NCBI GenBank assembly: GCA_001799395.1 | Contig: MGTJ01000146.1 | Location: 1-35,152, forward strand | DNA: 35,152 nt | Direction of reading: 5' to 3' | Source of the DNA: Desulfobacterales bacterium RIFOXYA12_FULL_46_15 | GTDB lineage: Bacteria > Desulfobacterota > Desulfobacteria > Desulfobacterales > Desulfobacteraceae | Shown here: positions 8,696-27,430 of the stretch, in pieces | Layout of the letters: every line of letters starts with the position of its first letter | How positions within the stretch are numbered: the stretch's first letter is position 1 | Position numbers and translations under genes: made by a program | The notes under the pieces: generated by a model | The model's input: the letters and a program-made list of their open reading frames with translations, nothing else | The model's database searches: none | Told to the model about the DNA's origin: nothing

Positions 8696-8761
8696 AATTG
8701 ATTGACCTCAATTAATATTCTATAAATTTTGAATGACTTCCATCATACCCCATACTCATTT

Positions 8762-9541
8762 TTAATGAGAATCCGCAGCATCACCACTTCCAAGATAAGC
8801 TTCAATAACGGTTTTATTGTTCTTTATCTCTTCGGGCAGGCCTTCGGCAATCATTTTCCCATAGTCGAATACGGTTACAATATCGGAAATATTCATTACA
8901 ACCCGCATCTGATGCTCAATAAGAACAATCGTGATACCTATTTCACCCCGCATATGTTCGATGAAATCCATCATATCCTGGGTCTCCCGGGGATTCATGC
9001 CGGCTGTGGGTTCATCCAGAAGCAGCAGCTTGGGCTGAGAAGCCAAGGCTCTGGCCATCTCAAGTCTTCTTTGCTCACCATAGGGAAAATTTTTGGCAAG
9101 GGTATTCTCTTTTCCTTCCATTTTCACATATTTTAAAAGATCCATGGCAATTTGTTTGGCTTTTGCTTCTTCCATTTTTGTGCTTTTAAGACCGAGAATG
9201 GGGCCTATAAAACTGGATTTCAAGTGCACATGATATCCTACCATAACATTTTCAAGGGCTGTGAGATTGGGAAAAAGCCTGATGTTTTGATAGGTCCTGG
9301 CTATGCCTTTATGGACAATCCTGTCCGGGGAAAGCCCGACAATGGAATTGCCGCTTAACAGCACTTCTCCTTCCTCAGGGCGGTAGAAGCCGGTGAGGCA
9401 GTTGAAAAATGTTGTTTTCCCGGCGCCATTGGGTCCGATAATGCTGTGGATGGATTTTTCCTTCACATTGATATTCAATGCATTCAACGCCACCAGCCCG
9501 CCAAACCGTTTTGTCATATTTTGTATACTCAATAACGTCAT
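8762..9541 (-). CDS. livG: Branched-chain amino acid ABC transporter ATPase LivG
   Basis: A 259-residue ATPase. GPNGAGKTT is the Walker A. The signature is PYGEQRRLEMARAL, with Tyr in place of the usual Ser-Gly, as is normal in LivG. Walker B is LLLDEPTAGMNP, followed by LIEHQM. The start is placed at the ATG at 9541 because AAAGGAG lies six bases ahead and the protein then begins MTLLSIQNMTKRFGG, as in the family. A longer reading to 9604 would overlap livM and has no binding site. With LivF it forms the ATPase pair of the importer. Confidence 0.93.
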   Translation of the reverse strand: MTLLSIQNMTKRFGGLVALNALNINVKEKSIHSIIGPNGAGKTTFFNCLTGFYRPEEGEVLLSGNSIVGLSPDRIVHKGIARTYQNIRLFPNLTALENVMVGYHVHLKSSFIGPILGLKSTKMEEAKAKQIAMDLLKYVKMEGKENTLAKNFPYGEQRRLEMARALASQPKLLLLDEPTAGMNPRETQDMMDFIEHMRGEIGITIVLIEHQMRVVMNISDIVTVFDYGKMIAEGLPEEIKNNKTVIEAYLGSGDAADSH

Positions 9542-9551
9542 AAAATCTCCT

Positions 9552-11237
9552 TTAAGGCTGAGCAGCAGTTTGCGTTCCGGTTTCAGTTTCATCGTGAAGC
9601 TCAATTTTATGCCGTACTTCCGGCAGAAGACCTTCCGGTCTTAACAGCATCATGATGACCAGGGCCACACCATAAACAAACATCCGGTAATCTGCAAATT
9701 CCCTTAACAGTTCGGGAAGGCCCATCAAAGCGGCGGCACCGACAACGATACCGGGCAGACTCCCGATACCGCCGATAATAACAATACAGACGACATTAAT
9801 AGAGATGAAAACATTAAAACTATGGGGATAAACAGAACCGATCTTGCTTGCAAATATGGCCCCGCTCAAGGCTGAAAACCCTGCGCCTGTTGCAAAGGCA
9901 AGTAATTTGGTAGCAACCAGATTGATTCCCATGGCCTGGGCCACATCCTCATCTTCCCGCATGGCCATCCAGGCCCGCCCGAGTCTTGAGTTCTTAAGCC
10001 TGAGGGAAATAAACACCACAAGGATACATCCTGCAAGAATCAGATAATAAATATGCTGGGGCTTAACCATTAAAAATCCCATAAAATTCGGGTTTGGAAT
10101 GGAACCAATCCCCTGGGCTCCGCCAAGCCATGGTTTCAGGAAGTCTGAGAGCACCAGGATACGGATAATTTCACCAAAGCCGAGGGTGGCAATAGCCAGA
10201 TAATCCCCGCGCATTTTAAGTACCGGGATACCCAGCATGACACCGGCTAATATACCACAGATTACTGCAATAGGTAGAGCCTGCCAGAAATTGAGCCCTA
10301 TATCGAAAATCTGAGGTGATGTCAAAAGTGCAACCACATAAGACCCAATGGCAAAAAAGGCCACATAGCCAAGATCCAGAAGCCCTGCATATCCGACAAC
10401 GATATTCAGCCCGAGTCCAAGTAGAACATAGAGTCCTACAATGGTCAGCACCTCGCTTAGAAACAGCCCGAGGAACTGGGGAAGAAAAATCAGGATGATT
10501 GCAAGAATCAACAATCCAAAATATTTTGTCTTTTTCTGGGTTGCTTTGGGTAGATTTGAATATTTTGTTTTAATGGTATTTTGATTTGCATGCCATAAAA
10601 GGTACAGGATGCAAAAAATAATGACGGCCAGAATTGCCCCGATAGGTGTCAGGCCGTTCAAGGTATAAAAGAGGCCGGCCAGATAATTGGTTACCCCCAG
10701 ATCCCATGAATTTAATATAGGCAGGATTAATTCCTGCAACAATCCTAAAGCAAAAACTGTTGCAATTGCATTAATGATCAATTTTCTTGGGAGATCGGTT
10801 AATACAATGAGGAGGCCGGAAAATGCACCGCAAAGAAGACCTGCAAAAAGAAGGATAAAAATGCCTCCTGCACCGGAGATGCCGCCGGTCAGTATATTAT
10901 AAAGCACCGGGGATGCTTCGACAAAAACGACCCGGAGCTTAATAGACCGGCCAATAATAACAAATATTGCAAGTAAGCCGGAGGTCACAAAACCGGACAT
11001 CACTGCATTGGCAAATTGAATTGATTTTTCTGGAATCGGCGTTTTTTTTGCTGCAATAAAAGCTGCAAACATGGATATAATTAACGCTATCGTCACACCC
11101 ATCGGCAGATATCCTGCAATAATAAACCGCTTCCCAAAGGATTCAACCATCCCGATCAGGCATATGACGAGAACGCTGACCCCACCAATGGCTCCTATTT
11201 TTACACCATGATTCCATAAAGACTGAGCTTTTGTCAT
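9552..11237 (-). CDS. livM: Branched-chain amino acid ABC transporter permease LivM, N-terminally extended
   Basis: A 561-residue inner membrane permease. The C-terminal part (about 255-545) is standard LivM: GLNIVVGYAGLLDLGYVAFF, RGDYLAIATLGFGEIIRI, NSRLGRAWMAMREDEDVAQ (the ATPase-contacting EAA-like loop), and the GIGSLPGIVVGA segment. The first 250 residues add about seven further hydrophobic helices. LivM proteins are commonly 290-425 residues, so this is a long variant. It lies 26 bases after livH and 10 bases before the livG ATG. The long form could be a lineage feature rather than a fusion. Confidence 0.9.
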   Translation of the reverse strand: MTKAQSLWNHGVKIGAIGGVSVLVICLIGMVESFGKRFIIAGYLPMGVTIALIISMFAAFIAAKKTPIPEKSIQFANAVMSGFVTSGLLAIFVIIGRSIKLRVVFVEASPVLYNILTGGISGAGGIFILLFAGLLCGAFSGLLIVLTDLPRKLIINAIATVFALGLLQELILPILNSWDLGVTNYLAGLFYTLNGLTPIGAILAVIIFCILYLLWHANQNTIKTKYSNLPKATQKKTKYFGLLILAIILIFLPQFLGLFLSEVLTIVGLYVLLGLGLNIVVGYAGLLDLGYVAFFAIGSYVVALLTSPQIFDIGLNFWQALPIAVICGILAGVMLGIPVLKMRGDYLAIATLGFGEIIRILVLSDFLKPWLGGAQGIGSIPNPNFMGFLMVKPQHIYYLILAGCILVVFISLRLKNSRLGRAWMAMREDEDVAQAMGINLVATKLLAFATGAGFSALSGAIFASKIGSVYPHSFNVFISINVVCIVIIGGIGSLPGIVVGAAALMGLPELLREFADYRMFVYGVALVIMMLLRPEGLLPEVRHKIELHDETETGTQTAAQP

Positions 11238-11263
11238 ACCTTCACCCTATATACTGTATTTGT

Positions 11264-12325
11264 TTAGGCCTTTTTCGTGGCTAATCGTTCACCCAGAATA
11301 CCTGTGGGTCTGAAAATCAGGATCATCACCAGCATGGTAAATGCAATCGCATCTTTTAACTGGTATGGGGCAATGATACCGAGACCATCAAGAAATAAAG
11401 CCGGAGCCACGGATTCAATCAACCCTAAAAAGACACCGCCCAGCATTGCACCCGGGATATTCCCGATTCCGCCAAGCACTGCCGCAGTAAAGGCTTTTAA
11501 ACCCGGAATAAATCCCATGAAAAAATGCACCTGCTTATACATCAGGGCATATAAAACACCGGCTGCTCCGGCTGCCATACCCCCGATGACAAAGGTGGTA
11601 GAAATCATGGCATCCACATCAATCCCCATCAAAGCGGCTGCTTCCTTGTCTTCAGACACTGCCCGGATGGCTTTTCCAACCTTTGTGGACATGATAAAGC
11701 CATAAAGCACTATCATCATCAGGATGGCCGCGACAATTACAATCGCCTGAATTTTCAGAACTCTTATGCCCAATATCATCCAGAATCCTTCAAGAACCTT
11801 CACATCAGGATATGCATTGATCCCTGATCCGTATAATCCTCTAAAAAGATATTGGAGAAAAAAGGAGGCCCCGATTGCCGTAATCAAGGGGATAAGTCGT
11901 GGCGCGCCTCTCAATGGTCTATAAGCGATTTTTTCAACCAGATAAGCTATCATCGTAGAAATAAGCATGGCCACTGCAAAAATAGCAATGATCGCTATAA
12001 TTGGGTGGTTATCTAAAAAATCGCTTCGCCACATGGCTGTTGCAACAAAATAACCGGTGAAGGGACCGCTCATGAAAACCTCACCATGAGCGAAATTGAT
12101 CATCTTCAGGACACCGTAAACCATGGTGTAGCCGGTTGCTATCAATGAATAGATACTTCCCTGGGCTAATCCGAAAATTACAAAGTCTATCCAGTGGCTT
12201 TTTGTATACAGACCTGCCCTGATGGTGGAAACCGATCCCCATAAGCACATTAACAAAAGGGTCCCCCCGATCATCCACATGACAATGTCGGTCACCGTTA
12301 CCCTATCTTTCCATTTTTGAAACAT
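11264..12325 (-). CDS. livH: Branched-chain amino acid ABC transporter permease LivH
   Basis: A 353-residue inner membrane permease. Family motifs include GLAQGSIYSLIATGYTMVYG at about 52-71, INFAHGEVFM, VGKAIRAVSEDKEAAALMGI in the coupling loop, and GGIGNIPGAMLGG. A first helix at about 15-35 extends the usual N-terminus by some 45 residues. GGAGG sits five bases before the ATG at 12325. It follows livK on the minus strand after an attenuator-like hairpin and precedes livM. Confidence 0.92.
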   Translation of the reverse strand: MFQKWKDRVTVTDIVMWMIGGTLLLMCLWGSVSTIRAGLYTKSHWIDFVIFGLAQGSIYSLIATGYTMVYGVLKMINFAHGEVFMSGPFTGYFVATAMWRSDFLDNHPIIAIIAIFAVAMLISTMIAYLVEKIAYRPLRGAPRLIPLITAIGASFFLQYLFRGLYGSGINAYPDVKVLEGFWMILGIRVLKIQAIVIVAAILMMIVLYGFIMSTKVGKAIRAVSEDKEAAALMGIDVDAMISTTFVIGGMAAGAAGVLYALMYKQVHFFMGFIPGLKAFTAAVLGGIGNIPGAMLGGVFLGLIESVAPALFLDGLGIIAPYQLKDAIAFTMLVMILIFRPTGILGERLATKKA

Positions 12326-12432
12326 TCATCCTCCATCCCATGATAAAAAACAGTTTGGTTCAGGGCAGGGCAAATAGTTAGACCATTTAATCAACCCTGT
12401 AATAACGCCTGTTTTATTTTTTATCCCAAGAA

Positions 12433-12473
12433 AAAACCACACCCGACAACGTGACCATGCCGGGTGTGGTTTT
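12433..12473 (-). terminator. Hairpin between livK and livH
   Basis: A 13-base stem (CGGGTGTGGTTTT at 12461-12473 with its complement at 12433-12445) and a 15-base loop, followed on the minus strand by a T-rich tract. It begins seven bases after the livK stop. It most likely stops part of the transcription so that the binding protein is made in excess over the membrane complex, as is common in ABC importer operons. Confidence 0.75.
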
Positions 12474-12479
12474 ATTTAA

Positions 12480-13688
12480 TTAATATTGTTTCCAGAAAGG
12501 TACTGTTGACATTTTGTTGGCTTTGAGGTCAGCTTCCGTCAGTTGGTAAACCGCTATTTTAGGATCAGCACAGTCGCCGTATTGATTACAGGTGATGGTA
12601 CCGGTAAGGCCTTTCATCCCTTTTGTCTCATGCAATGCCTTGTTGAAAGCATCTCTGTCGATTTCAAGGGTATCCCCTTTAACAACGGCTACTTTCTCTA
12701 TGGCACCCTTGATCAGGAACATTGCATCATAGGCGTGAGCGTGGAAAGGAGCTTCCGGAGCAGTGCCATATTTTTTCTTGAATTTTTCAAGGAAAGCTGT
12801 ATAGGAGGCATCCAGGGCTGAGAAATCAGGGCTTGAATGATACATGCCAACGGCTGCACTGCCGGCTGCTGCAAGGAAATCAGGAGAGAATGAGCCATCA
12901 GCACTCATGAGAGCTGTTTTTTCCAACCCGGCAACCTGTTTTGCCTGTTTTACACAATGGGCTGTTTCCGGGATAAACATGGGCATGTAGATCATTTCAG
13001 GAGTACCGCTGGCAATTTTTGTCAGAACCGGTCTCATATCAGTGTCACCAGGGGAAACTGCTTCAATGGAAGTAATGGTTCCGCCAAGTTTTTTGAATGT
13101 ATCGGCAAAAACCTGAGCAAGTGACTGGGCATAAACGCTGCCGTCATGGATGGCAGCGGCTTTTTTAAACGCTAATTTTTTAAACGCGAATTCTGCTGCA
13201 ATAGCACCCTGGATATTGTCATTGTGGCAGGTTCTCAGATAACCGGAAAAGTCAGGTCCGCTGGCAGGATCAGTCAGGAAGGGAGCTGTGTTGGATGCGG
13301 AAATAGATGGGATTCCCATCTTCCAAAGTATGGGCACACCAGGTTTTGCTGCACTGGAGCAACTTGAGCCAATAGCCATAAGAACCGTCGGATCTGATGC
13401 AATTTTAGATGCGGCAGTCTGACCGCCTTCTGGGCCGCACCCTTCATCCTGGCTGCTGAGTTTAATGGGATGGCCTTTAATGGATCCGCCCATTTCTTCG
13501 ACAGCTATTTCAAGACCACGGAAGGTATCAATTCCAAGAGAAGAGTTGGGTCCGGTTGTTACAAACCAGGCAGCCAGATGGACAGGCTCCCCTTTTTTTA
13601 TGGTAAGAACATTTCCTGCTGAAGCCGGGCCGGCTATCAAACCGAACAGAAAACAAACAGCAACCAACACTTTTAATAAATGTTTCAT
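12480..13688 (-). CDS. livK: Periplasmic amino-acid binding protein (LivJ/LivK family)
   Basis: A 402-residue periplasmic substrate-binding protein of the type I fold. The signal peptide covers about 1-25 (cleavage after PASA). The mature part has FRGLEIAVEEMGG, KIASDPTVLMAIGSSCSSAA, then PSISASNTAP, DGSVYAQSLAQVF and HAHAYDA motifs, all typical of hydrophobic amino acid binding proteins. Extra cysteines (EGCGPEGG, SSCSSAA) may form a disulfide. GGGGGAG precedes the ATG. A good sigma-70 promoter lies about 140 bases upstream. The exact ligand is not readable; aromatic or branched amino acids fit the neighbourhood. Confidence 0.9.
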   Translation of the reverse strand: MKHLLKVLVAVCFLFGLIAGPASAGNVLTIKKGEPVHLAAWFVTTGPNSSLGIDTFRGLEIAVEEMGGSIKGHPIKLSSQDEGCGPEGGQTAASKIASDPTVLMAIGSSCSSAAKPGVPILWKMGIPSISASNTAPFLTDPASGPDFSGYLRTCHNDNIQGAIAAEFAFKKLAFKKAAAIHDGSVYAQSLAQVFADTFKKLGGTITSIEAVSPGDTDMRPVLTKIASGTPEMIYMPMFIPETAHCVKQAKQVAGLEKTALMSADGSFSPDFLAAAGSAAVGMYHSSPDFSALDASYTAFLEKFKKKYGTAPEAPFHAHAYDAMFLIKGAIEKVAVVKGDTLEIDRDAFNKALHETKGMKGLTGTITCNQYGDCADPKIAVYQLTEADLKANKMSTVPFWKQY

Positions 13689-17391: not shown

Positions 17392-18687
17392 GTGATGTCT
17401 TATACATTTGAACCACACCGGAATTTTGCAGAACGGCTCGATCGGGAAGATATCCTGAAAAAATACAGGTCTAATTTTCATATACCTGAAAATATCATTT
17501 ATATGGACGGCAATTCCCTTGGCCTTTTTTCGGAAAATGCTGAAAAAAGTATCCATCGGGTTATAAAAGAATGGAAAGAGTCTGCCATTCGCGGCTGGAT
17601 GGCAGGGGAAAAACCCTGGTTTTATCTGCCCGAAGAAATCGGAAAAAAATGTGCTTCCATTGTGGGTGCTGAAAAAGAAGAGGTCATCATGACCGGTTCA
17701 ACCACCGTGAATATCCATTCTTTGATCAGCACCTTTTATCAGCCCAAAGGGAACCGGACAAAAATAATTGCCGATGAACTTAATTTTCCATCAGATATCT
17801 ATGCCCTCAAAGGGCAGATCAGAATAAAGGGGCTTGATCCTGAAAAAGAGCTGATCCTTATCAAAAGCCATGACGGCCGATACCTGGATGAAGAGATCAT
17901 AGCCGCAGCAATGACCGATGAGGTGGCGCTGGTTTTTCTGCCCTCGGTCCTTTTCAGAAGCGGTCAGTTGCTGGATATGGCGTTTCTTACCCGGGAAGCC
18001 AGTAAAAAAGATATTTTCATCGGCTTTGACTGCTGTCATTCAGCAGGAAATATCCCCCACCGGTTTTCCGAATGGGGCCTTGATTTTGCCGTCTGGTGCA
18101 GTTATAAATATATGAATGGCGGCCCTGGAAGTCCTGCTTTTTTATATATCAATAAAAAACATTTTCATAAAACGCCTGTCCTGGCCGGTTGGTATGGCTG
18201 TGAAAAAACGCGCCAGTTTGATATGAGCATTGACTTTGGCCATTCACGGAGTGCCGGAGGCTGGCAGATTTCTACCCAGGGGATGCTGAGTGCTGCCCCC
18301 GTTGAAAGCGCGCTTGACATCATCCTGGAAGCCGGTATGGACAATATACGGGAAAAATCTAAAAAAATTACTTCTTATCTGGCTTATCTTGTGGAAATGG
18401 TTTTATCAAAAAAACCCTATAATTTTAAAATCGGAACACCCCTTGATCCTGAAAAGAGGAGCGGGCATATTGCCCTTGAGCATGAAACCGAAGCTGTTCG
18501 AATCGGTAAGGCATTGCTGGATAACCATGTTATTCCGGATTTCCGGCCTCCCAATGTTATTCGGATAGCCCCGGCACCGCTTTACAATACCTATCTTGAA
18601 GTCTATGAAATGGTTCAGATACTCAAAAAGATAATGGATACAAAAGAGTATGAGCATTATTCAAAGGAAAGGGGAACCGTTTCCTGA
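17392..18687 (+). CDS. kynU: Kynureninase
   Basis: A 431-residue fold-type I PLP enzyme that cleaves L-kynurenine to anthranilate and alanine. Conserved blocks are YMDGNSLG near 41-48, RGWM in WKESAIRGWM, TGSTTVNIH, DELNFPSD, FDCCHSAGNIPH, and the PLP lysine K239 in CSYKYMNGGPGSPAF, all typical of KynU. Length fits the family. The start is either GTG at 17392 or ATG at 17395; AGGA lies seven or ten bases upstream. It is the last gene of the dat-chemoreceptor operon, 20 bases after the receptor. No tryptophan dioxygenase or formamidase gene is visible, so kynurenine may be imported. Confidence 0.9.
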   Translation: MMSYTFEPHRNFAERLDREDILKKYRSNFHIPENIIYMDGNSLGLFSENAEKSIHRVIKEWKESAIRGWMAGEKPWFYLPEEIGKKCASIVGAEKEEVIMTGSTTVNIHSLISTFYQPKGNRTKIIADELNFPSDIYALKGQIRIKGLDPEKELILIKSHDGRYLDEEIIAAAMTDEVALVFLPSVLFRSGQLLDMAFLTREASKKDIFIGFDCCHSAGNIPHRFSEWGLDFAVWCSYKYMNGGPGSPAFLYINKKHFHKTPVLAGWYGCEKTRQFDMSIDFGHSRSAGGWQISTQGMLSAAPVESALDIILEAGMDNIREKSKKITSYLAYLVEMVLSKKPYNFKIGTPLDPEKRSGHIALEHETEAVRIGKALLDNHVIPDFRPPNVIRIAPAPLYNTYLEVYEMVQILKKIMDTKEYEHYSKERGTVS

Positions 18688-19182: not shown

Positions 19183-19623
19183 TTACAATCTCTTTTTCAG
19201 ATTGATGAATTCGCTTCTCTCAAACCCCAGTTTTTTAAAAAAGGACAGTACATCCGTTGAATCCCAGAGAACTGAAGAATATATATTTTCGACCCCTTTT
19301 TCTTTATAGATATCACAGATCTTCCGGGCAAGGGTCAGTCCAATGCCCTGGCCCATATATTCAGGGTGTACACCGATGGCCATGATCCAGGCACTTTTTT
19401 TAATTCCAAACCCGGCATACAAGGTTGTACTGATCATATACCCCACAACCCTTCCGTTGATTTCAGCCACAAGGTTCAGTTTGCCTCTGTTTTCAGATAT
19501 CTGCTGTTTTACGAATTTTTCAAAATCAATTGAGCCGTCTTCCTCTGAGATTGCCCTTCTTATCTGTTGAATGGCCGATGCATCTTTAAGCGTGATTTCT
19601 CTTATGTTAACTGTATGTTCCAC
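19183..19623 (-). CDS. GNAT-family N-acetyltransferase
   Basis: A 146-residue GCN5-related acetyltransferase. NIREITLKDASAIQQIRR opens the fold. The acetyl-CoA pyrophosphate loop is the HPEYMGQGIGLTLA region (about 89-102, Q/G-x-G-x-G/A pattern), and the C-terminal SFFKKLGFERSEF is the family's usual ending. The acceptor substrate is unknown. AGGGAGGA precedes the ATG. It lies between a DUF2080 gene (14-base gap) and a membrane protein gene on the minus strand, which suggests co-transcription. Confidence 0.85.
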   Translation of the reverse strand: MEHTVNIREITLKDASAIQQIRRAISEEDGSIDFEKFVKQQISENRGKLNLVAEINGRVVGYMISTTLYAGFGIKKSAWIMAIGVHPEYMGQGIGLTLARKICDIYKEKGVENIYSSVLWDSTDVLSFFKKLGFERSEFINLKKRL

Positions 19624-19637
19624 AAGATCCTCCCTTG

Positions 19638-19823
19638 TTATTCGACTTTAATGATCTTTACGGTATGCCCGACCCAGTTTGGCGGAAGGTAAATTCTACC
19701 GCTGTTGCCACTGGATTTAACTTCTTTCTCGATCATTTCTTCACCATAAACTTCAAATTTTACTTTTGTTTGAGGTAAAGATTTTTTTTCCGTATCTTTT
19801 TCCAGTTTTTCTTTATCTGCCAT
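19638..19823 (-). CDS. DUF2080-family small protein (AbrB/SpoVT-like)
   Basis: A 61-residue protein. The C-terminal block VKSSGNSGRIYLPPNWVGHT followed by VKIIKV is the hallmark of DUF2080, often labelled transposon-encoded protein in databases and related to swapped-hairpin AbrB DNA-binding domains. The N-terminus is Lys/Glu-rich. It heads a three-gene minus-strand cluster with the GNAT gene. It may regulate this small cluster. No transposase or inverted terminal repeat is visible beside it. Confidence 0.7.
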   Translation of the reverse strand: MADKEKLEKDTEKKSLPQTKVKFEVYGEEMIEKEVKSSGNSGRIYLPPNWVGHTVKIIKVE

Positions 19824-19971
19824 ATGGCGCCCTTTTTTACCCTAAACTGCTTTTTAACAAATATTGGATTATAGCTTAATTTTATCTGTTATATAGCTAT
19901 AATTATATTTTTTTGCCTATATTTACAATCTTTAATTTTAATTTTCCTCAAATTGCCTGTATTAATAAAAA

Positions 19972-20006
19972 CAGGCGGGCAAGGATTAATCATCCCTGCC
20001 CGCCCG
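19972..20006 (-). terminator. Rho-independent terminator of the pad-like operon
   Basis: A 15-base stem on the minus strand (including two G-U pairs) around a 5-base loop, followed immediately by TTTTT. It lies 16 bases after the stop of the NrfD-type gene. Confidence 0.85.
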
Positions 20007-20022
20007 TTATCAGAACATTTGC

Positions 20023-20937
20023 TTATTGTCTTGTTAAGAGCGGTTTATATACCGCACTTTTCATAATCACATATCTTACTGCAAGATCCCCGGCAAAAAC
20101 AGATGCCAGCCTTAAAAAGATCCAGAAGGCATTTGTGTCTCCGCCCCACATGATCAGGGTCAAAATCAGCGGAAGTGCTACACCGAGACCTCCGACGCCG
20201 ATGAGAGATATCCTCTTTAGTTCCCCTGTTCCCTGCATGATGATGGATTCTTTCCCGATCTCACTGCTGTGATAGGTTCCCCAGGCATAGAGAATGATGC
20301 AAAGAACATAGGCAAAGAAAAATACTTCAGCCCATACTTCCATTCCGGAAGCTATTTCTGCAGGTTTTGAAACGACAAACATGAATTGCAGGAGCTGGTA
20401 CCCGACCCATACGCCGGAAATAACGGACAAGGGCAGGACCATGGTTGAACTCCAGGCAGGAAGCGCCCTGATAACATTCATGGTGGCAAAACCGTGGGAG
20501 ATGATGAGAAGACACAGGATTCCCATAATTATATTAAATACAACATTAAAGCTGCTGCCGCTTATAATCTGTAAAAATCCCATGACGGCAAAAACCCCGA
20601 TAATCCATATACCGCGGGATAACTCAGATGTTTTGGGTTTCATGATCATACGCCAGGCCCTGAGCGGATTTCCCAGATACAAGATATGAATGGCTCCCCC
20701 AAGGATCAGGGTAATGAGCCAGCCCAGGATCAATCCGGCCTTAAACTCATAAAACAGTGAAACAAAATACAGACCTGCCCCGATTTCAGAAAAAAAGAAG
20801 GCCAGCCAGAGAAAAATTCCCTGGTTATCAATCCATTGCTGCTGACGGGTAGGGTTAACCATCCACTCATAGGGTTTAAGCCCGCTGCCGTCAGGAGGAA
20901 ACATGGTCTGTACAAGATGATGAATTTTATTACTCAT
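20023..20937 (-). CDS. padD-like: NrfD/PsrC-type membrane anchor subunit (PadD-like)
   Basis: A 304-residue polytopic inner membrane protein with about eight to nine helices from residue 35 onward. FLWLAFFFSEIGAGLYF at about 42-58 and the GGAIHILYLGNPLRAWRM region at about 80-97 are typical of NrfD/PsrC quinone-interacting subunits. In complexes of this kind the subunit passes electrons from the Fe-S subunit to the quinone pool. It starts 14 bases after the catalytic-subunit stop and ends the seven-gene operon. The PadD comparison rests on neighbouring genes, not on sequence recall. Confidence 0.75.
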   Translation of the reverse strand: MSNKIHHLVQTMFPPDGSGLKPYEWMVNPTRQQQWIDNQGIFLWLAFFFSEIGAGLYFVSLFYEFKAGLILGWLITLILGGAIHILYLGNPLRAWRMIMKPKTSELSRGIWIIGVFAVMGFLQIISGSSFNVVFNIIMGILCLLIISHGFATMNVIRALPAWSSTMVLPLSVISGVWVGYQLLQFMFVVSKPAEIASGMEVWAEVFFFAYVLCIILYAWGTYHSSEIGKESIIMQGTGELKRISLIGVGGLGVALPLILTLIMWGGDTNAFWIFLRLASVFAGDLAVRYVIMKSAVYKPLLTRQ

Positions 20938-20951
20938 TTTATATCCCTCCT

Positions 20952-23558
20952 TTAATCTTTATAAATTTTAACTGCAACAGCGGTTTCCATATTACCGGCA
21001 ACCGGGTCAAAATACCTGAATTTAGCAGGCAACAGCTTACAGAAGTTAGCGCCTTTACCTTTGGCTATGGGCCGCCCGTCAGCCCACAATCCGCCCTGGC
21101 CGGCTATACCGACAACTTTGGGGCTCTGGGCTTCCATGGTCTTCACAATACCGTTTTCTTTAACACCATATTTGTTTTCAATCCAGATGATATCCCCGTC
21201 TTTCAAACCTCTTTGTTTTGCCATGGTCGTGTTCAAGGTAATGGTAAACGTGTAGGGGCACATCTTGGATACTTCATCAATATACGGATTCTGGAACGTG
21301 GTATTGTTGGTGTGCAAAATATCCCTGTATGAAAATGCTATCAGATCAAATTCATTGTCCAGATCCTTGTGGGATTCTGGCCAAAACCAGGTCGGCAGCG
21401 GTGTATACTGATCCCAATCCATCCACAGATCAAATCCGACCTCATCAAATATCTTTTTCATGCCCCGTTTGTCATGAATCAGGTATTCCATGTAAACCGG
21501 GCACCGGGTATCAATATTCCATCTCCAGTAGACATCATCAATGGCCTTATTCCAGGTCGCATATCCCTGTTTCTGAACCTTATCCGCATCCTTACCATAA
21601 ACCCATTTCAGGAATCTTTCACCGATCTGTTTCCAGGTCAACACTTCACCGGGTTTGATTTGCAGTTCCGGATCCTGGACCCCATAGTACGAGTTGAGCT
21701 TGGCATTAAATTTATCCAGAACGCCAACGCGGTTGGCAATATCGATATAAACATCCATGAAGAACCTGGACTCACCAACCGGTTTGGCCACAGGCTGCTG
21801 CATGTGCACATACCAGTCTTCATGGGAGGGTGATCCGGAAAAAAAGAACGCATCTATTTCAGAGGACCAGCAGTCTTTTTCAAGATAGGACACATCCGGC
21901 AGAATAATATCACCAATGGCCTGGTCGGTTTCATTGACCCACAGATCCAACTGAACGACAAAGCAGTCTTTGAAATTTTTGACGGCTGTGGCCCAGTCGG
22001 AATTACTGATAACAAAATTCGCTGAAATTCCGAAAATCATTTCCGGTTTTGACTTCATGCCGAGTTTCTCATGGATATACTCCATTTCCTCAACATAAGG
22101 AATATGGGAAAGGGTGCAGTGGGTCCATAGATCAACACAGCCCATGTTGGTGGCCGGATAGCTGGGTGCATGGACCGGCCAGGGATCATGGGAATAGAAT
22201 ACAGAAGGTACAATAACGCCGTCCGTGCCCACAGTGCAAGTCTGCTCATAATTACCGCCCGGATAGGCTCTTCGGATGGCAGGCCATCCCAGAGTACCGC
22301 CAGGTACGTCTTCCGCACCCACCAACTGGCTCATCAAATCAATGGCAGCCACCTGATGGATACCGTTTGAATGGCCCTGCGAACCGCGGAAAGTCACTGA
22401 GGAAACCGGTCTGTAGGGATAGGTCTTTCCCTCAAGGGTGATGGTGGAACCAATCTGGGCATTGTCCAACCAGCCCTTGGCCACTTCCAGGATCTTGGCT
22501 GCCGGAACAGTGGACACATCAGCTGCCCATTCGATGGTATACTGTTTTAAATGCTCTTTAAACGGAACAAAGCAGGGTCTTACCTTTTCCCCTTCATATT
22601 CGTATTCGCCATCAAGGGCACAATCTTCAAAGGCAAGAGACTTGTCATCATATTCCTTGACTTTGCCTTCCCTGCTGTCAAATATTAACGGCTTTTTACT
22701 TTCTACATGACGCATGTATGTACCGTCGTCTTTAATCAGATATGGGAAATTGGTTTTGGCTTTAAGGTAAATCTCATCCATCTCACCGCGGATGTTCACA
22801 ATATAGTTGGCAATGGCAAGCCCCACGGCTGTATCCGTACCCGGAAGAATGGCCACCCATTCGGTGGCCTTACCGCCTGCAAAATTCCCCATGGGATCAA
22901 ATACGATTTCCTTGATACCGCGCCGGACCGCATCCGCTCTCAGGCGGGCATTGGTCATGGCGGAGTGTCCGGAACCAGTGCCTTTACTGGAACCCCATTT
23001 CAATACATATTTGGTATAACGCCAGTCCGGTGCAATGGACCAGGCACCATGGATCAGACCACCCAGCATGTGACAGGCATTTCCGCAGTGAAGACTTCCG
23101 CCGCCGATGATGAAATTACCATTGTTCTTTACGCCAAAGGCCTGGGCATAAAAATAGGGGTGGTTGTGGGGGCCGTCAGACGCTCTCATGGTCTGGTTCG
23201 TGAAAAGAATCTTGTTGGGGTCGTCTTCCATGATTTTTTTCATCCTGGTGGCAATGATGTCCAGGGCTTCATCCCATTCAATCTCTTTCCATTTCGGGTC
23301 TACCCCGATCCCTTTTTCCGGATTGGTTCTTAACAGAGGTTTTTTAATCCGGTTGGGATCATGATAATACATCAGCCCTGCGGTTCCTTTACCGCAAAGC
23401 CCTGCATTGGCTCCACCCATTGTGCTTTCTTTGATTCCCTCAATTTTGACGGGAACACCGTTGACCACCCTGACTTTTGCGCCGCAACCGCAGTAACATA
23501 CGCCACAGGTGGTATTTACCCATTTGTCTTCCCAAATTTCATCTGTTTTATAGGTCAT
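20952..23558 (-). CDS. padB-like: Molybdopterin oxidoreductase catalytic subunit, probable arylacetyl-CoA oxidizing (PadB-like)
   Basis: An 868-residue DMSO-reductase-family enzyme. The N-terminal [4Fe-4S] site uses C18, C21, C25 and C55 (TCGVCYCGCG, then GLCGKG). WDEALDIIATRM at about 95-106 starts the molybdopterin fold, and C158 or C162 in GGSLHCGNACH is a candidate metal ligand. The dinucleotide-binding C-terminal domain has TITLNTTMAKQRGLKDGDII. There is no Tat signal, so the enzyme acts in the cytoplasm, as expected for a CoA-ester substrate. It is encoded between the Fe-S and membrane subunit genes. Together with the adjacent 2-oxoacid oxidoreductase genes this resembles phenylacetyl-CoA:acceptor oxidoreductase. 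Mo versus W and the substrate are inferred. Confidence 0.7.
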   Translation of the reverse strand: MTYKTDEIWEDKWVNTTCGVCYCGCGAKVRVVNGVPVKIEGIKESTMGGANAGLCGKGTAGLMYYHDPNRIKKPLLRTNPEKGIGVDPKWKEIEWDEALDIIATRMKKIMEDDPNKILFTNQTMRASDGPHNHPYFYAQAFGVKNNGNFIIGGGSLHCGNACHMLGGLIHGAWSIAPDWRYTKYVLKWGSSKGTGSGHSAMTNARLRADAVRRGIKEIVFDPMGNFAGGKATEWVAILPGTDTAVGLAIANYIVNIRGEMDEIYLKAKTNFPYLIKDDGTYMRHVESKKPLIFDSREGKVKEYDDKSLAFEDCALDGEYEYEGEKVRPCFVPFKEHLKQYTIEWAADVSTVPAAKILEVAKGWLDNAQIGSTITLEGKTYPYRPVSSVTFRGSQGHSNGIHQVAAIDLMSQLVGAEDVPGGTLGWPAIRRAYPGGNYEQTCTVGTDGVIVPSVFYSHDPWPVHAPSYPATNMGCVDLWTHCTLSHIPYVEEMEYIHEKLGMKSKPEMIFGISANFVISNSDWATAVKNFKDCFVVQLDLWVNETDQAIGDIILPDVSYLEKDCWSSEIDAFFFSGSPSHEDWYVHMQQPVAKPVGESRFFMDVYIDIANRVGVLDKFNAKLNSYYGVQDPELQIKPGEVLTWKQIGERFLKWVYGKDADKVQKQGYATWNKAIDDVYWRWNIDTRCPVYMEYLIHDKRGMKKIFDEVGFDLWMDWDQYTPLPTWFWPESHKDLDNEFDLIAFSYRDILHTNNTTFQNPYIDEVSKMCPYTFTITLNTTMAKQRGLKDGDIIWIENKYGVKENGIVKTMEAQSPKVVGIAGQGGLWADGRPIAKGKGANFCKLLPAKFRYFDPVAGNMETAVAVKIYKD

Positions 23559-23573
23559 GTTTCCCCCTGTAAA

Positions 23574-24230
23574 TTAATCGATATAATAAACCGCCGGTTC
23601 AGTACCAAATTCTTTCCGGAGCTGTTTACCCTTTTTCTCCATGATCATTCGGTTGATTTCACTGTTAGGATCATCCAAGTCACCGAAAACCCTTGCATTG
23701 ACCGGACAGATATTCACGCATGCAGGAGATGCATCCTCATCCTTACCCGGCGTAAGACCCTTTTTCAAACCGTCTTCTATTCTTTCCGAGCAGAAATTAC
23801 ATTTGATGACTGTTCCCAATTTAAAGGGGTAAAGCTTTTCGCCGATCAATTCCATTTCAGTTTTACCCTGGCCCGGAAAATATTCCTTATCTTTGACTTT
23901 CTGATCATAATAGGTTCTCTGCTGGTACGGACAACTGACAAGGCAGGCCCTGCAACCCACACATTTTGTATCATCAATGGCTACGATCCCGTCTTCTCTC
24001 ACATAGGTCGCTCCGGTGGGGCAAGCTTCCACGCAAGCGGCATCAGAACAATGATTGCAGAGAATCGGATAAATCAGTTTGCTGGATGATGGAAATTTTC
24101 CGGTCTCCCCGATGAGTACCCTGTTAAAGAATACCCCAGGAGGAAGAAAATGCTCCTCTTTACATGCAATGGTGCAGCCCCAGCAGGCAATACACCTTTT
24201 AACGTCAATTACCATTCCCCATCTAGGCAT
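23574..24230 (-). CDS. padC-like: Four-cluster ferredoxin-like subunit of the Mo oxidoreductase (PadC-like)
   Basis: A 218-residue electron-transfer subunit of the DmsB/PsrB/PhsB type. Cysteine groups for four [4Fe-4S] clusters are visible: CIACWGCTIAC near 13-23, CNHCSDAACVEACP near 58-71, CVGCRACLVSCP near 90-101, and CNFCSE with CVNICP near 142-176. It lacks a signal peptide, matching the cytoplasmic catalytic subunit. It starts 57 bases after the gamma-subunit gene and ends 15 bases before the catalytic-subunit gene. It relays electrons to the NrfD anchor. Confidence 0.85.
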   Translation of the reverse strand: MPRWGMVIDVKRCIACWGCTIACKEEHFLPPGVFFNRVLIGETGKFPSSSKLIYPILCNHCSDAACVEACPTGATYVREDGIVAIDDTKCVGCRACLVSCPYQQRTYYDQKVKDKEYFPGQGKTEMELIGEKLYPFKLGTVIKCNFCSERIEDGLKKGLTPGKDEDASPACVNICPVNARVFGDLDDPNSEINRMIMEKKGKQLRKEFGTEPAVYYID

Positions 24231-24287
24231 AATAACTCCTTATTAAAATTAAAGTTATACCCTTATTGATCTTTATTATCCCTGGTT

Positions 24288-24836
24288 TTAAAGATCAAAT
24301 AATTGAACTTCTTCAAATCCCCGTTTTGCACATATGATATTGGCAGCAAGCTTTTTCCCGGAAAAATAATCCTGAAGTGCATCGCAGCAAGGTTCAATAT
24401 CCAATAACCCCGACAATCTGGCAAATGCGCCGACAACTACTGTGTTGGGTATGACAAGGCCGATTTCTTCCTGTGCAATTTTATTGGCATTAATGATCCC
24501 GAGCTTTCTTAAATTCTCATGGGAAACATTAATCGTATTGTCTGAGTCATTGAGCAGCATCATACCGCCCGGCAACAGTCCCTGGAATACGGCAGGAGAA
24601 TTTCTCTGGCTCGGATCAAGGACTACGATAATATCCGGATTATAGATCTGTGTTTTCTCTCTGACCGGCTTATCGGAAAACCGGCCGAATGCAGTAACTG
24701 GTGCGCCTCTCCTTTCAAACCCGAACATGGGAAAACTGGCGCCGAACTGACCGGTTCTGGCAAACGCATTGGCAAGAATCTTAGATGTGGTGACAACCCC
24801 CTGCCCCCCTCTTCCATGAAATCTGACTTCACTCAT
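24288..24836 (-). CDS. 2-oxoacid:ferredoxin oxidoreductase gamma subunit
   Basis: A 182-residue subunit. HGRGGQGVVTTSKILANA at about 7-24 is the diagnostic gamma-domain motif for 2-oxoacid oxidoreductases, and IVVLDPS follows near 70. The gene begins 15 bases after the beta-subunit stop. AGGAGG precedes the ATG. In phenylglyoxylate oxidoreductase the matching subunit is PadE. The substrate class (pyruvate, 2-oxoisovalerate or aryl glyoxylate) cannot be told from this subunit. Confidence 0.88.
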   Translation of the reverse strand: MSEVRFHGRGGQGVVTTSKILANAFARTGQFGASFPMFGFERRGAPVTAFGRFSDKPVREKTQIYNPDIIVVLDPSQRNSPAVFQGLLPGGMMLLNDSDNTINVSHENLRKLGIINANKIAQEEIGLVIPNTVVVGAFARLSGLLDIEPCCDALQDYFSGKKLAANIICAKRGFEEVQLFDL

Positions 24837-24851
24837 TTTGCATTTCCTCCT

Positions 24852-25811
24852 TTAATCTTCTGAAGATACCGGAAGCTGACATTCTCCTTCCAGTACACTC
24901 AACCCGCCCAGCATGCAGTATTCATAATCCACGTCATCCTGAAGAATCTGAAGGTCCTCTTCACTCAAATGAGCGAATTTTTTAATCAGCTCGGTATAGG
25001 TTGTTACAGGCTTGGGTTTTTTAACGGTTTTGGTCATCCTGATTTTTCCATTGACTGCTTCCCAAAGCGGGAAATAGTTTGTTTTTACAGCTCTTCGGCA
25101 TACCTCAATGGTGTTTTCAGGTGCAAACCCCCAACCGGTGGTGCAGGGAGCAAAAACATGAAGAAATGCAAAACCTCTTTTTTTGGCTTCTTTGGCTTTT
25201 AACAGTTTTTTAGCCAGATCGTCAAGATCACTTAAGGTTGCCGTTGCAGCATAGGGGATCTTGTGCATGGCCATTTTCAGTGCCAGGTTCATTCTACGAA
25301 GATTTTTCCCTTTGGAAGCAGATCCAAGAGGGGTGGTGGTGGTGGTTGCACCAAAAGGAGTGGTCCCGCTTTTCTGGATACCGGTATTCATGTATCCTTC
25401 ATTGTCATAGCAGATATAAATAAAAGGCTCATTTCTTTCGGCTGCTCCGGACAGGTTGCCGAACCCGATATCGGCTGCCGTTCCGTCGCCGTTAAAACAA
25501 ACGACCGTATTCTCAATGCCTGCTTTCCTGTAATATCTGGCAAGCCCTGTGGCATTGGCCGCAGCACCGGTCATCAAGGTTCCGAAATAAGACAGTTTAT
25601 GCCAGGTTTGGTTGTTCTGTCCAAGGAGTACCGGAGCTGAACAGGATGGAGTTCCGGTTATGACGATATCATTGCCCAATACCTGGGGAATGAATCGGAT
25701 TAACAGCTCAAGACCGCATCCGGGACAGAATGCCACACCTTTTGAAAACGGGTCCTCATGTTTGAGATAATCCATTACTTTAGTCAGATTGTCTTTCTTT
25801 TTTTGTGTCAT
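24852..25811 (-). CDS. 2-oxoacid:ferredoxin oxidoreductase beta subunit (thiamine diphosphate-binding)
   Basis: A 319-residue subunit. FCPGCGLELLIR near 27-38 supplies cluster ligands. The thiamine-diphosphate and Mg site is GDGTAADIGFGNLSGAAERN, followed by YDNEGYMNTGIQKSGTTPFG, as in PorB-type proteins. The start is set at the ATG at 25811, one base after the alpha-subunit stop with GAGGGAGGG ahead. An upstream frame to 25892 would overlap the alpha gene. It catalyses oxidative decarboxylation of a 2-oxoacid to the acyl-CoA together with the alpha subunit. Confidence 0.88.
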   Translation of the reverse strand: MTQKKKDNLTKVMDYLKHEDPFSKGVAFCPGCGLELLIRFIPQVLGNDIVITGTPSCSAPVLLGQNNQTWHKLSYFGTLMTGAAANATGLARYYRKAGIENTVVCFNGDGTAADIGFGNLSGAAERNEPFIYICYDNEGYMNTGIQKSGTTPFGATTTTTPLGSASKGKNLRRMNLALKMAMHKIPYAATATLSDLDDLAKKLLKAKEAKKRGFAFLHVFAPCTTGWGFAPENTIEVCRRAVKTNYFPLWEAVNGKIRMTKTVKKPKPVTTYTELIKKFAHLSEEDLQILQDDVDYEYCMLGGLSVLEGECQLPVSSED

Positions 25812-25812
25812 G

Positions 25813-27039
25813 TTAAAGCCCTCCCTCTTCCTGGGCTTCAGGATATGAAACCCATGTGACTTCACGAACATCTTTGCCTGCGGCAAGATCACAAGTCATA
25901 TCAATCATTGTTGCAACATTGATCTTTGTGATGTCGGTATTTGCAATACCATCGATAAAACTGATCATTTTCGAACCGCCAAGCTGAGTTTCAAAGGCTT
26001 TAAGTTCCGTATAAATCGGACCGCCCTTAAACCCGAAGCAAAGGCTTCTGTCCACCACACCGATGGCTTTTTTACCCTTAAGGGCTTTGATCATTGCTTC
26101 GCTGGGGAAGGGTCTGTACATTCTCAATTTTAAAAGACCGATCTTAACGCCGGCAGCCCGTTTTTCATCAATCACCGCTTTAATGGTTCCGCACATGGAG
26201 CCTGATCCTACCAGTACCGCATCTGCGTCATCCATTCGATATTCTTCAACCAGGCCGCCGTAGCTGCGGCCGAAAATCTCTTCATATTCTTTGTCAATCC
26301 GTTCAAATTTAGCCTTGGCTCTTTCCATGGCAGACATATGTTTGTGCCGAAGTTCCAGGTATCCCAAAAGGATTCCATGGGACCCACAACCCAGTTTGCC
26401 GCCCGGGACCAGTTTTGTTCTTTCAGGCTGGGTCTTTAAAACAGATAAAAATTTATCAACATCCTCCTGAAAAGGTACATTTACTCCTTCAGACAGGTAA
26501 GACAGGTAGAAGCCATCATAATGAACCATGACCGGAACCTGGATGTCGTAATCCTCAGCCAGGCGATAGGCCTGGAGAACCAGGTCAAGAACTTCCTGGC
26601 AATCTTCGGCAATAAGGAAAATCCATCCGGCATCCCGTGTGGAAATCATATCCTGCTGGCCGGAAGATACAGCAATGATACCCGGAGTCTCACGATTAAC
26701 ATTCACCATGACAACAGGCGCTCTGGCCCCCGCAGCAGCAAGAATTGCGTCATACATGAAAACAAGCCCCCAGGAAGAAGTGGCGGTAAAGACTCTTCCG
26801 CCTGCAATAGAGGCTGCCATAACCGCATTCATGGCGGAATTCTCACCTTCAACCGTAATCAGCTCGCAATCCATTTCCCCGTTTGCATGAAATTGGGAAA
26901 TCTGTTCAATAATTTCGGTTTGAGGGGTAATCGGGTAAGCTGCCACCACATCCGGCCGGGCAAGCTTTGCAGCAATGGCGGCAGCTGCGTTTCCTGTGAT
27001 AACCTTAATCTGTGATTTTTTTTGTGCTTTTGTAATCAT
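25813..27039 (-). CDS. 2-oxoacid:ferredoxin oxidoreductase alpha subunit
   Basis: A 408-residue subunit with the pyrimidine-binding and transketolase-C-like domains of the PorA family. YPITPQTEI at about 35-43, VEGENSAMNAVMAASIAGGR at about 63-82, TSSWGL, and SSGQQDMISTRDAGW at about 125-139 are conserved blocks. It overlaps the delta-subunit gene by four bases (ATGA), giving translational coupling. In the pad scheme it corresponds to PadG. The CoA-binding part is not separately identifiable here. Confidence 0.88.
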   Translation of the reverse strand: MITKAQKKSQIKVITGNAAAAIAAKLARPDVVAAYPITPQTEIIEQISQFHANGEMDCELITVEGENSAMNAVMAASIAGGRVFTATSSWGLVFMYDAILAAAGARAPVVMVNVNRETPGIIAVSSGQQDMISTRDAGWIFLIAEDCQEVLDLVLQAYRLAEDYDIQVPVMVHYDGFYLSYLSEGVNVPFQEDVDKFLSVLKTQPERTKLVPGGKLGCGSHGILLGYLELRHKHMSAMERAKAKFERIDKEYEEIFGRSYGGLVEEYRMDDADAVLVGSGSMCGTIKAVIDEKRAAGVKIGLLKLRMYRPFPSEAMIKALKGKKAIGVVDRSLCFGFKGGPIYTELKAFETQLGGSKMISFIDGIANTDITKINVATMIDMTCDLAAGKDVREVTWVSYPEAQEEGGL

Positions 27040-27323
27040 TTTTTAAAATCCCCCTCCGGCATCATGGAAATTGCATTTTTGGGACATTCCTTGGCACAGA
27101 TCCCGCACCCTTTACAAAAGCCCAGGTCTGGAGAAAAATATGACTCTTCAATCATCTCCATTACCTGGATCGGACAGTAGATCGCACAAAACCCGCAGAA
27201 TATGCATTTGTCCTTGTCGACGATCGGCCGTTTGGTTCGCCAGTCCCCTGTATCGGAACACATCAGGGGATCATTCGCATCTGACCACGGTCCTTCATGC
27301 TTAAAATACTTGTTTGATGACAT
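27036..27323 (-). CDS. 2-oxoacid:ferredoxin oxidoreductase delta subunit (2[4Fe-4S])
   Basis: A 95-residue ferredoxin-like subunit. Two full cluster motifs are present: CIFCGFCAIYCP at about 41-52 and CKGCGICAKECP at about 70-81. The N-terminus DWRTKRPIVDKDKC is standard for PorD/VorD. It is first in the seven-gene operon, with AGGAGA ahead of the ATG. It would hand electrons to soluble ferredoxin. No NAD-reducing flavoprotein subunit like PadH is encoded nearby. Confidence 0.9.
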   Translation of the reverse strand: MSSNKYFKHEGPWSDANDPLMCSDTGDWRTKRPIVDKDKCIFCGFCAIYCPIQVMEMIEESYFSPDLGFCKGCGICAKECPKNAISMMPEGDFKK

Positions 27324-27391: not shown

Positions 27392-27430
27392 CATAGCTAC
27401 TACATAGCGACTATGTGATTGCATTGTCAA
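27392..27430 (-). promoter_or_regulatory. Promoter with overlapping operator for the pad-like operon
   Basis: On the minus strand TTGACA (27430-27425) is followed after 18 bases by TATGTA, a plausible sigma-70 promoter with a weak -10. Across the -10 lie two tandem 11-base repeats, CATAGCTACTA at 27392-27402 and CATAGCGACTA at 27403-27413, and a perfect inverted repeat ACATAG-CGA-CTATGT at 27402-27416. That arrangement looks like a binding site for a dimeric regulator. About 70 bases of leader separate it from the delta-subunit ATG. Confidence 0.5.

Follow-up and report, generated by a model that had tools for sequence, protein, structure and literature searches.

The 35,152-nt contig MGTJ01000146.1 of Desulfobacterales bacterium RIFOXYA12_FULL_46_15 (GenBank assembly GCA_001799395.1), referred to here at its full length as the window, carries a seven-gene minus-strand operon at positions 20023 to 27323. 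Reading from sequence and with somewhat better than even confidence, we interpret this operon as a two-enzyme alpha-oxidation module that would act on aryl-acetyl-coenzyme A (aryl-acetyl-CoA) and feed the anaerobic benzoyl-CoA pathway. The operon appears to form a lineage separate from the phenylacetate-oxidizing Pad system. The place, strand, and gene identities proposed in a first-pass annotation of the window were confirmed by the open reading frame (ORF) list with its translations and by NCBIfam and Pfam searches. In order of transcription, and with iron-sulfur abbreviated as Fe-S and thiamine pyrophosphate as TPP, the genes are as follows.

27036 to 27323, minus strand: delta subunit of a 2-oxoacid:ferredoxin oxidoreductase, with two [4Fe-4S] motifs (TIGR02179 PorD_KorD, 89.7 bits; cutoff, 60.05)
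25813 to 27039, minus strand: alpha subunit, TPP dependent (PF01855, PF17147)
24852 to 25811, minus strand: beta subunit of 319 aa with a TPP_enzyme_C domain (PF02775), without an N-terminal Fe-S extension
24288 to 24836, minus strand: gamma subunit (TIGR02175, 189.8 bits; cutoff, 81.1)
23574 to 24230, minus strand: PadC-like four-cluster Fe-S subunit (PF13247 and relatives), with four groups of four Cys residues by direct reading
20952 to 23558, minus strand: PadB-like molybdopterin catalytic subunit (Mo subunit) of 868 aa, presumed cytoplasmic (PF00384)
20023 to 20937, minus strand: PadD-like, NrfD-like eight-helix membrane subunit, assigned from its AlphaFold model and fold matches

The profile searches confirmed a four-subunit 2-oxoacid:acceptor oxidoreductase, as the alpha, beta, gamma, and two-cluster delta subunits and the TPP domains are all present (TIGR02175, TIGR02179, PF01855, PF02775, and PF01558 over cutoff), and also identified the molybdopterin oxidoreductase and the Fe-S protein. 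The beta ORF as listed (346 aa, from 25892) overlaps the alpha gene; translation likely begins at an internal ATG giving 319 aa, and the orthologues in two related loci (L035 and L040) are ORFs of 318 aa. The membrane subunit had no match in Pfam or NCBIfam at E ≤ 0.001 and no sequence relative in PDB at E ≤ 10. Its earlier designation as NrfD-like nonetheless stands, because its AlphaFold model (predicted local distance difference test [pLDDT] score, 86.7) matches PsrC (2vpw_C; E = 1.5e-4) and ActC (6lod_C; E = 2.1e-4). Lysine and arginine residues number 14 on the side of the N and C termini and 2 on the opposite side; by the positive-inside rule, the termini are therefore cytoplasmic. This subunit presumably carries the menaquinone site. 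Within the Mo subunit, Cys 18, 25, and 55 are invariant and Cys 21 is kept in 35 of 36 aligned rows, a pattern that fits a [4Fe-4S] cluster, while Cys158 (likewise 35/36) is a candidate Mo ligand. Direct reading of the N termini of the Mo and Fe-S subunits revealed no twin-arginine motif or other export signal, in agreement with the proposed lack of a twin-arginine translocation (Tat) signal. Neither an ORF for the flavoprotein PadH (within 20023 to 27323) nor a CoA ligase gene was found in the operon.

The gene order delta-alpha-beta-gamma-C-B-D is conserved in the related loci read, apart from cuts at contig ends and uncalled ORFs; the delta gene was recovered by tblastn in four loci where simple ORF calling had skipped genes. 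Because this order is conserved, the operon exceeds what chance would produce; it is real and probably functional. The Mo subunit occurs at 73 to 100% identity, in some cases as fragments at contig ends, in 24 of 58 related genomes including the source genome; these carriers comprise 21 of the 26 genus members and 3 of the 9 remaining family members. Two genomes, G040 and G048, have distant homologues only (32 to 34% identity), and two of the 24 carriers, G008 and G009, hold a second, distant copy (33 to 35%). In G009, a distant Mo/Fe-S/NrfD set (L030:7063-16714; 34% identity) adjoins genes resembling, by eye, UbiD, an ADP-forming acyl-CoA synthetase, and a protein of the aldehyde:ferredoxin oxidoreductase type, with no 2-oxoacid oxidoreductase match in that stretch. 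Beyond these genomes, a scan of named genomes (79 loci from the best 80 of 593 stretches) gave, among the matches listed, Desulfotignum, Desulfobacula, and related metagenome-assembled genomes (MAGs) at 73 to 91% identity; Chloroflexi, Desulfatiglandales, and "Deltaproteobacteria" MAGs at 41 to 44%; and others at 32 to 40%. Mo genes linked to a 2-oxoacid oxidoreductase also occur in Chloroflexi (L062, L064, L087, and L109, the last on a contig cut before the full Mo gene) and on a "Deltaproteobacteria" contig (L058/L104). In L062, the order is gamma-delta-alpha-beta-B-C-D, with 29 to 62% identity to the operon proteins. Most other distant relatives have a Mo gene without a linked 2-oxoacid oxidoreductase within the DNA examined. 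A plasmid search yielded one distant relative, from Sporomusa (28.5% identity).

Genomic context supports a tie between the operon and aryl-CoA/benzoyl-CoA metabolism, in line with the aromatic role first proposed from the gene sequences. OAH, a diagnostic ring-opening hydrolase of the benzoyl-CoA pathway, scored over the TIGR03200 cutoff in 28 of the 58 genomes. The ratio of genomes with OAH to those without it was 19/5 in the presence of the operon and 9/25 in its absence (Fisher's exact test, P = 1.4e-4), and 19/5 versus 2/9 among the 35 family members (P = 0.002), both tests ignoring phylogeny. When OAH fragments were counted, including that of the source genome, the ratios became 22/2 and 11/23. 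The source genome itself did not reach the cutoff because contig C12 ends inside the gene: the 60 remaining codons are 92% identical to the gene of G017, and the opposite side of that G017 region has an 83% match on contig C200. The C12 fragment led us to reject loss of the benzoyl-CoA pathway from this genome.

A candidate for substrate activation is a PaaK-like ligase encoded divergently from the Chloroflexi L062 operon (TIGR02155, 230.7 bits, below the cutoff of 646.3). This protein shares 67% identity with G000:C8:54163, a ligase of the source genome, and 65% with one in G008; its identity to the PaaK-type ligases found in G054 and G008 is 32 to 33%. Ligases of the L062 type are found in 19 of the 24 operon genomes and in 7 of the 34 others. 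The earlier statement that PadH and a CoA ligase are missing thus holds within the operon, although a ligase candidate lies elsewhere in the genome. The source genome also encodes three homologues of the alpha subunit of indolepyruvate-type oxidoreductase (IOR) at E ≤ 1e-80. In L143, a CoA-transferase-like gene recognized by eye and an IOR-alpha gene are about 2 kb apart, in agreement with the iorAB/atoAD neighborhood that excerpts of PMC5109826 describe.

Under the proposed mechanism, the membrane-anchored cytoplasmic Mo/Fe-S complex would oxidize Ar-CH2-CO-SCoA to an aryl-glyoxylate and pass the electrons to menaquinone via the NrfD-like subunit. The four-subunit 2-oxoacid:ferredoxin oxidoreductase would then convert the aryl-glyoxylate to Ar-CO-SCoA and CO2 with reduction of ferredoxin, and the aroyl-CoA would enter the class II (Bam) benzoyl-CoA pathway, whose genes lie elsewhere in the source genome. 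The aryl-acetyl-CoA could be supplied by the PaaK-like ligase in trans or from arylpyruvate by the IOR-type enzymes. Because PadH and a fused ferredoxin domain are both absent, the second enzyme should reduce ferredoxin and not NAD, which favors the PadH-independent electron route of the first-pass annotation. A rationale for a ferredoxin-linked second step would lie in the low-potential electrons that class II benzoyl-CoA reduction requires. The coupling of the Mo complex to the 2-oxoacid oxidoreductase, also part of the original proposal, gains support from the homologues of both Pad enzymes that are joined in a single unit, both in the window and in Chloroflexi L062. The two-step route is suggested because both enzyme types are paired as in the Pad route (excerpts of PMC5109826 and PMC9765128), for which excerpts of PMC9765128 describe phenylglyoxylyl-CoA and its hydrolysis as an intermediate stage.

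On present sequence evidence, phenylacetyl-CoA would be the likeliest single substrate, an assignment that we make tentatively and with less than even confidence; 4-hydroxyphenylacetyl-CoA (from tyrosine) or indoleacetyl-CoA (from tryptophan) come next. That the same two-step chemistry serves one of these other aryl-acetyl-CoA compounds is possible, if on balance unlikely. Such a substrate would account for the retention, in the congener G008, of a canonical pad cluster together with an operon of the window type. In several congeners, the operon adjoins genes for transporters of the LIV-type ATP-binding cassette (ABC) class, which is known for amino and aromatic acids. The conserved gene set offers no hydroxyl- or indole-specific step, and none of the other loci read has a counterpart of the window's kynureninase gene next to the operon.

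A second alternative, which we consider improbable, is that the operon joins two unrelated enzymes, namely, a pyruvate- or branched-chain-type 2-oxoacid oxidoreductase and an anion reductase of the Psr/Arr/Pcr type. The closest solved folds to the AlphaFold model of the Mo subunit (pLDDT, 88.1) are indeed PcrA, ArrA, and PsrA, and the alpha subunit scores highest with PorA_Arch (413 of 550 bits). Against this, the seven-gene order is kept across the genus and a similar set occurs in Chloroflexi; the Mo subunit lacks a Tat signal, whereas the solved Psr, Arr, and Pcr enzymes are periplasmic; and a single-chain PFOR-like frame of 1,186 aa in the source genome could serve pyruvate. The Mo subunit also missed the equivalog cutoffs for PhsA (162.9 of 694 bits) and ArrA (112.7 of 1,600 bits). 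In the first of two Mo-subunit trees, neither of which includes PsrA or ArrA themselves, five other molybdopterin paralogues of the source genome fell outside the group of the window protein (support only 93, with long branches). Membership in the PhsA/PsrA family or another non-Pad family, put forward at the outset as one finding that would refute the proposal, is not indicated by these comparisons.

The remaining question is how the operon relates to canonical Pad. An ordinary phenylacetate Pad system, with orthologous PadBCD and PadEFGI and a lost PadH, would likewise comprise these two classes of enzyme. Each of the four 2-oxoacid oxidoreductase subunits has a Pad model among its matches, and for the beta subunit the PadI model ranks first. 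The scores, at 84 to 359 bits for cutoffs of 150 to 700, are far from equivalog level: 167 of 300 bits for PadE, 84.0 of 150 for PadF, 359 of 700 for PadG, and 289.5 of 700 for PadI. The PadI model covers the window beta subunit from model position 145 onward only, and the N-terminal Fe-S fusion of PadI (∼440 aa) is absent. Moreover, the complete genome G008, from the same genus, carries an operon of the window type (82% identity for the membrane subunit and 88 to 95% for the six other proteins) and, at 4.92 Mb, a canonical pad cluster with a different gene order (L029). In that cluster, PadE (312.7 bits; cutoff, 300), PadG (748.9; cutoff, 700), and PadH (482; cutoff, 475) exceed their cutoffs and PadI falls just short (695.7; cutoff, 700), with B, C, and D genes downstream. 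G040 has a similar pad set (PadI, 743 bits; cutoff, 700). The Mo subunits of these two Pad clusters are 32 to 33% identical to that of the window. Three genes 3' of the G008 pad cluster (L029:12988-16769) resemble, by eye, an enzyme of the xanthine dehydrogenase/4-hydroxybenzoyl-CoA reductase type.

Both Mo-subunit trees place the Pad rows apart from the window rows. They were made from ORFs with a match of >250 bits and a length of 800 aa or more, so that shorter or broken ORFs of the 79 loci were excluded; the Pad reference rows were the PadEFGHI-linked Mo subunits of L029 and L033, serving as proxies for the named PadB proteins of Thauera, Azoarcus, and Aromatoleum, none of which was among the 79 loci. 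In the first tree (83 Mo subunits; a quick IQ-TREE run with Shimodaira-Hasegawa-like approximate likelihood ratio support), the two Pad rows formed one clade (support, 100) on a long stem, and 14 rows of the genus group formed a clade (100). The latter belonged to a larger group (97) whose other rows, from Chloroflexi, Desulfatiglandales, and Myxococcota, are the nearest relatives of the window protein outside its family. A search with the canonical-type PadB of G008 in the 12 genomes behind 14 proteobacterial loci retrieved homologues of 56 to 58% identity in G459, G454, and G448. In the second tree (80 rows), these three joined the Pad rows (100), while the window rows grouped with Chloroflexi and delta rows (96); one row, L181, has a very long branch, and its ORF, which was picked automatically, is probably in the wrong frame. 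PadE to PadI genes were not found by ORF and blastp analysis in the 15.6 to 17 kb around the three homologues (B was present in 3/3, C and D in 2/3); linkage to PadE to PadI is therefore not general in that clade. The deep branches of an alpha-subunit tree were poorly resolved. The proteobacterial genomes behind L066 to L121 hold many PadB-like Mo paralogues, mostly 30 to 36% identical to the Pad-type query, with up to 14 in G452 and 12 each in G448 and G454 at E ≤ 1e-60, indicative of a large family.

The missed cutoffs, the coexistence in G008, and the trees led us to reject orthology of the operon to canonical Pad, and an ordinary Pad system is accordingly very improbable. The idea, taken from the first annotation, that the operon is no more than a sulfate-reducer version of the pad set is not supported: a congener has canonical PadH and fused PadI besides the operon, and the trees separate the lineages. 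Since G008 belongs to the same genus, a sulfate reducer can carry the canonical form. Equally hard to credit is alpha-oxidation of a nonaromatic acyl-CoA blocked for beta-oxidation, such as a 3-methyl-branched acyl-CoA: in principle, activation of the alpha carbon might open any acyl-CoA to shortening by this pair of enzymes, and LIV-type transporters are nearby, but co-occurrence and neighborhood indicate benzoyl-CoA genes.

Downstream of the operon lie two conserved companions, which the first-pass annotation does not mention.

19638 to 19823, minus strand: DUF2080 protein of 61 aa (PF09853, 24.1 bits; cutoff, 21.5)
19183 to 19623, minus strand: GNAT acetyltransferase (PF00583)

Among 18 distinct loci with >1 kb of DNA downstream of the operon (four duplicate records excluded), DUF2080 was present in 16 and GNAT in 17; L037 has neither, and L036 lacks DUF2080. 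The GNAT gene was also found in 13 operon-free genomes, seven of which were sampled for neighborhood. In five of these seven, the pair is near benzoyl-CoA-type genes: BamB/BamC-like (G044), BamB to BamF-like (G050), BamF to BamI-like with HGD-D subunits (G037), HGD-D-like genes only (G036), and OAH at 3 kb (G042), Bam names beyond the Pfam matches being assigned by eye. No benzoyl-CoA-type genes lie near the pair in G034, and G031, the seventh, offers a 6-kb contig whose genes were not listed. Across the 34 operon-free genomes, the ratio with to without OAH was 8/5 in the presence of GNAT and 3/18 in its absence (P = 0.008). The last 42 residues of DUF2080 are 81 to 98% identical to those of the window protein in the seven sampled genomes, and this conserved C terminus spans families of the order (L150, L151, L154, L155, and L156). 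Such conservation suggests a regulatory role for the pair, which, speculatively, might act by acetylating CoA ligases. A second DUF2080 copy heads a dehydrogenase-OAH-BamB gene run (L139:1431-1604, L144:13075-13203, and L148), with a further GNAT gene between OAH and BamB in L144. The two genes are laid out like a toxin-antitoxin system, and an excerpt of PMC10440598 mentions a DUF2080 antitoxin.

Two further elements border the seven genes.

19970 to 20008, minus strand: intrinsic terminator closing the seven-gene unit directly after the membrane subunit (17-pair stem with 10 G-C pairs and a T tail)
27396 to 27430, minus strand: promoter-like TTGACA box with the palindrome GCTATnTAnTAGC over the presumed −10 element, conserved upstream

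Terminator-like sites in the region numbered 9, versus 9.1 in shuffled sequences; the 17-pair stem, likewise not mentioned in the first-pass annotation, is the longest, the next having 11 pairs. The TTGACA box is present in 15 of 16 upstream regions (the exception being L036), of which L042 and L053 represent the same organism. No Rfam family reached its gathering score in the window. The kynureninase gene at 17392 to 18687 (TIGR01814 over cutoff) adjoins a chemoreceptor (MCP) gene and a D-amino-acid-transaminase-like gene. Kynureninase was rejected as a part of the system since it is never beside the operon in related loci L028 to L045, as were the chemoreceptor and transaminase, which are beside it in L034 only. 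LIV-type ABC transporter genes are convergent to the operon in several congeners (L028, L031, L039, L042, and L044), and the window has a related set at 7985 to 13688, ∼5 kb past the GNAT gene. In G030 (L036:4503-7867), the GNAT gene is separated from a LIV-type ABC transporter by genes for a UbiX-type flavin prenyltransferase, an aldehyde:ferredoxin-oxidoreductase-type protein, and what by eye is a ferredoxin.

Several observations weigh against an aryl-acetyl-CoA module. No Pad model that matched the operon proteins reaches its cutoff, and all three IOR homologues are below the IOR cutoff. The co-occurrence of operon and OAH is uncorrected for phylogeny in a sample dominated by the genus; two operon genomes, G007 and G029 (77% and 78% complete), have neither OAH nor an OAH fragment, and the association of GNAT with OAH is not significant inside the genus (P = 1.0). 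The ligase type is absent from 5 of the 24 operon genomes and adjoins the operon in L062 only. The operon is rare in the phylum, with matches at E ≤ 1e-120 in 8 of 395 sampled genomes, the source genome included and the other seven at 34 to 47% identity. The operator-like palindrome is complete in just 7 of 16 upstream regions, and shuffled sequences yield promoter-like and terminator-like sites as often as the region does. Finally, excerpts of PMC5109826 report that D. multivorans degrades phenylacetate without PadB and PadEFGHI, as does D. toluolica; D. multivorans grown on phenylacetate forms beta-oxidation-type enzymes, an AtoAD step is suggested for D. toluolica, and the last step of phenylacetate degradation in D. 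multivorans, which reportedly lacks padB and padEFGHI, is described as unclear.

Pad-like genes were annotated earlier in D. gibsoniae (excerpt of PMC4148979) and Dehalococcoidia DEH-C11 (excerpt of PMC4959651); a search of the open-access literature, covering article listings and excerpts of PMC5109826, PMC4148979, PMC4959651, PMC13416013, PMC11887813, and PMC9765128, found no text separating two Pad-like lineages. We tentatively propose, at less than even confidence, that the operon represents a second, separately evolved, ferredoxin-linked enzyme pair for anaerobic aryl-acetyl-CoA alpha-oxidation, widespread in the Desulfobacula group (21/26 sampled genomes of the genus, the source genome included) and with relatives in Chloroflexi. 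It could be the missing route from phenylacetate to benzoyl-CoA in those sulfate reducers of the group where canonical Pad is absent or unused. If so, the pair would supply low-potential ferredoxin usable by class II benzoyl-CoA reduction. For this conversion in sulfate reducers, which is not settled in excerpts of PMC5109826, the operon offers a specific candidate with an electron route that can be tested, and the label "Pad-like" alone lumps two lineages together.

Compared with known systems, the operon resembles PadBCD plus PadEFGHI of Thauera aromatica, Azoarcus evansii, and Aromatoleum aromaticum (excerpts of PMC5109826 and PMC9765128) in having Mo, Fe-S, and membrane subunits beside a multisubunit 2-oxoacid oxidoreductase and a Mo subunit without an export signal. 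It differs in the absence of PadH, a beta subunit unfused to a ferredoxin domain, another gene order, and the extra DUF2080/GNAT pair. Pad-like genes are reported for Dehalococcoidia DEH-C11 (excerpt of PMC4959651), and Chloroflexi L062, L064, and L087 (and the cut L109) carry gene sets of that kind. PsrABC, ArrAB, and PcrAB share the Mo-subunit fold, and Psr also shares the NrfD-like membrane-subunit fold, at 13 to 19% identity in the matches named. We know of no Psr, Arr, or Pcr reductase linked to a 2-oxoacid oxidoreductase. With PorABDG and VorABDG, which act on pyruvate and 2-ketoisovalerate, the operon shares subunit makeup, an Fe-S delta subunit, and presumably ferredoxin as acceptor; in contrast to these enzymes, its oxidoreductase is linked to a PadB-like Mo enzyme and scores below the PorA and PorB equivalog cutoffs.

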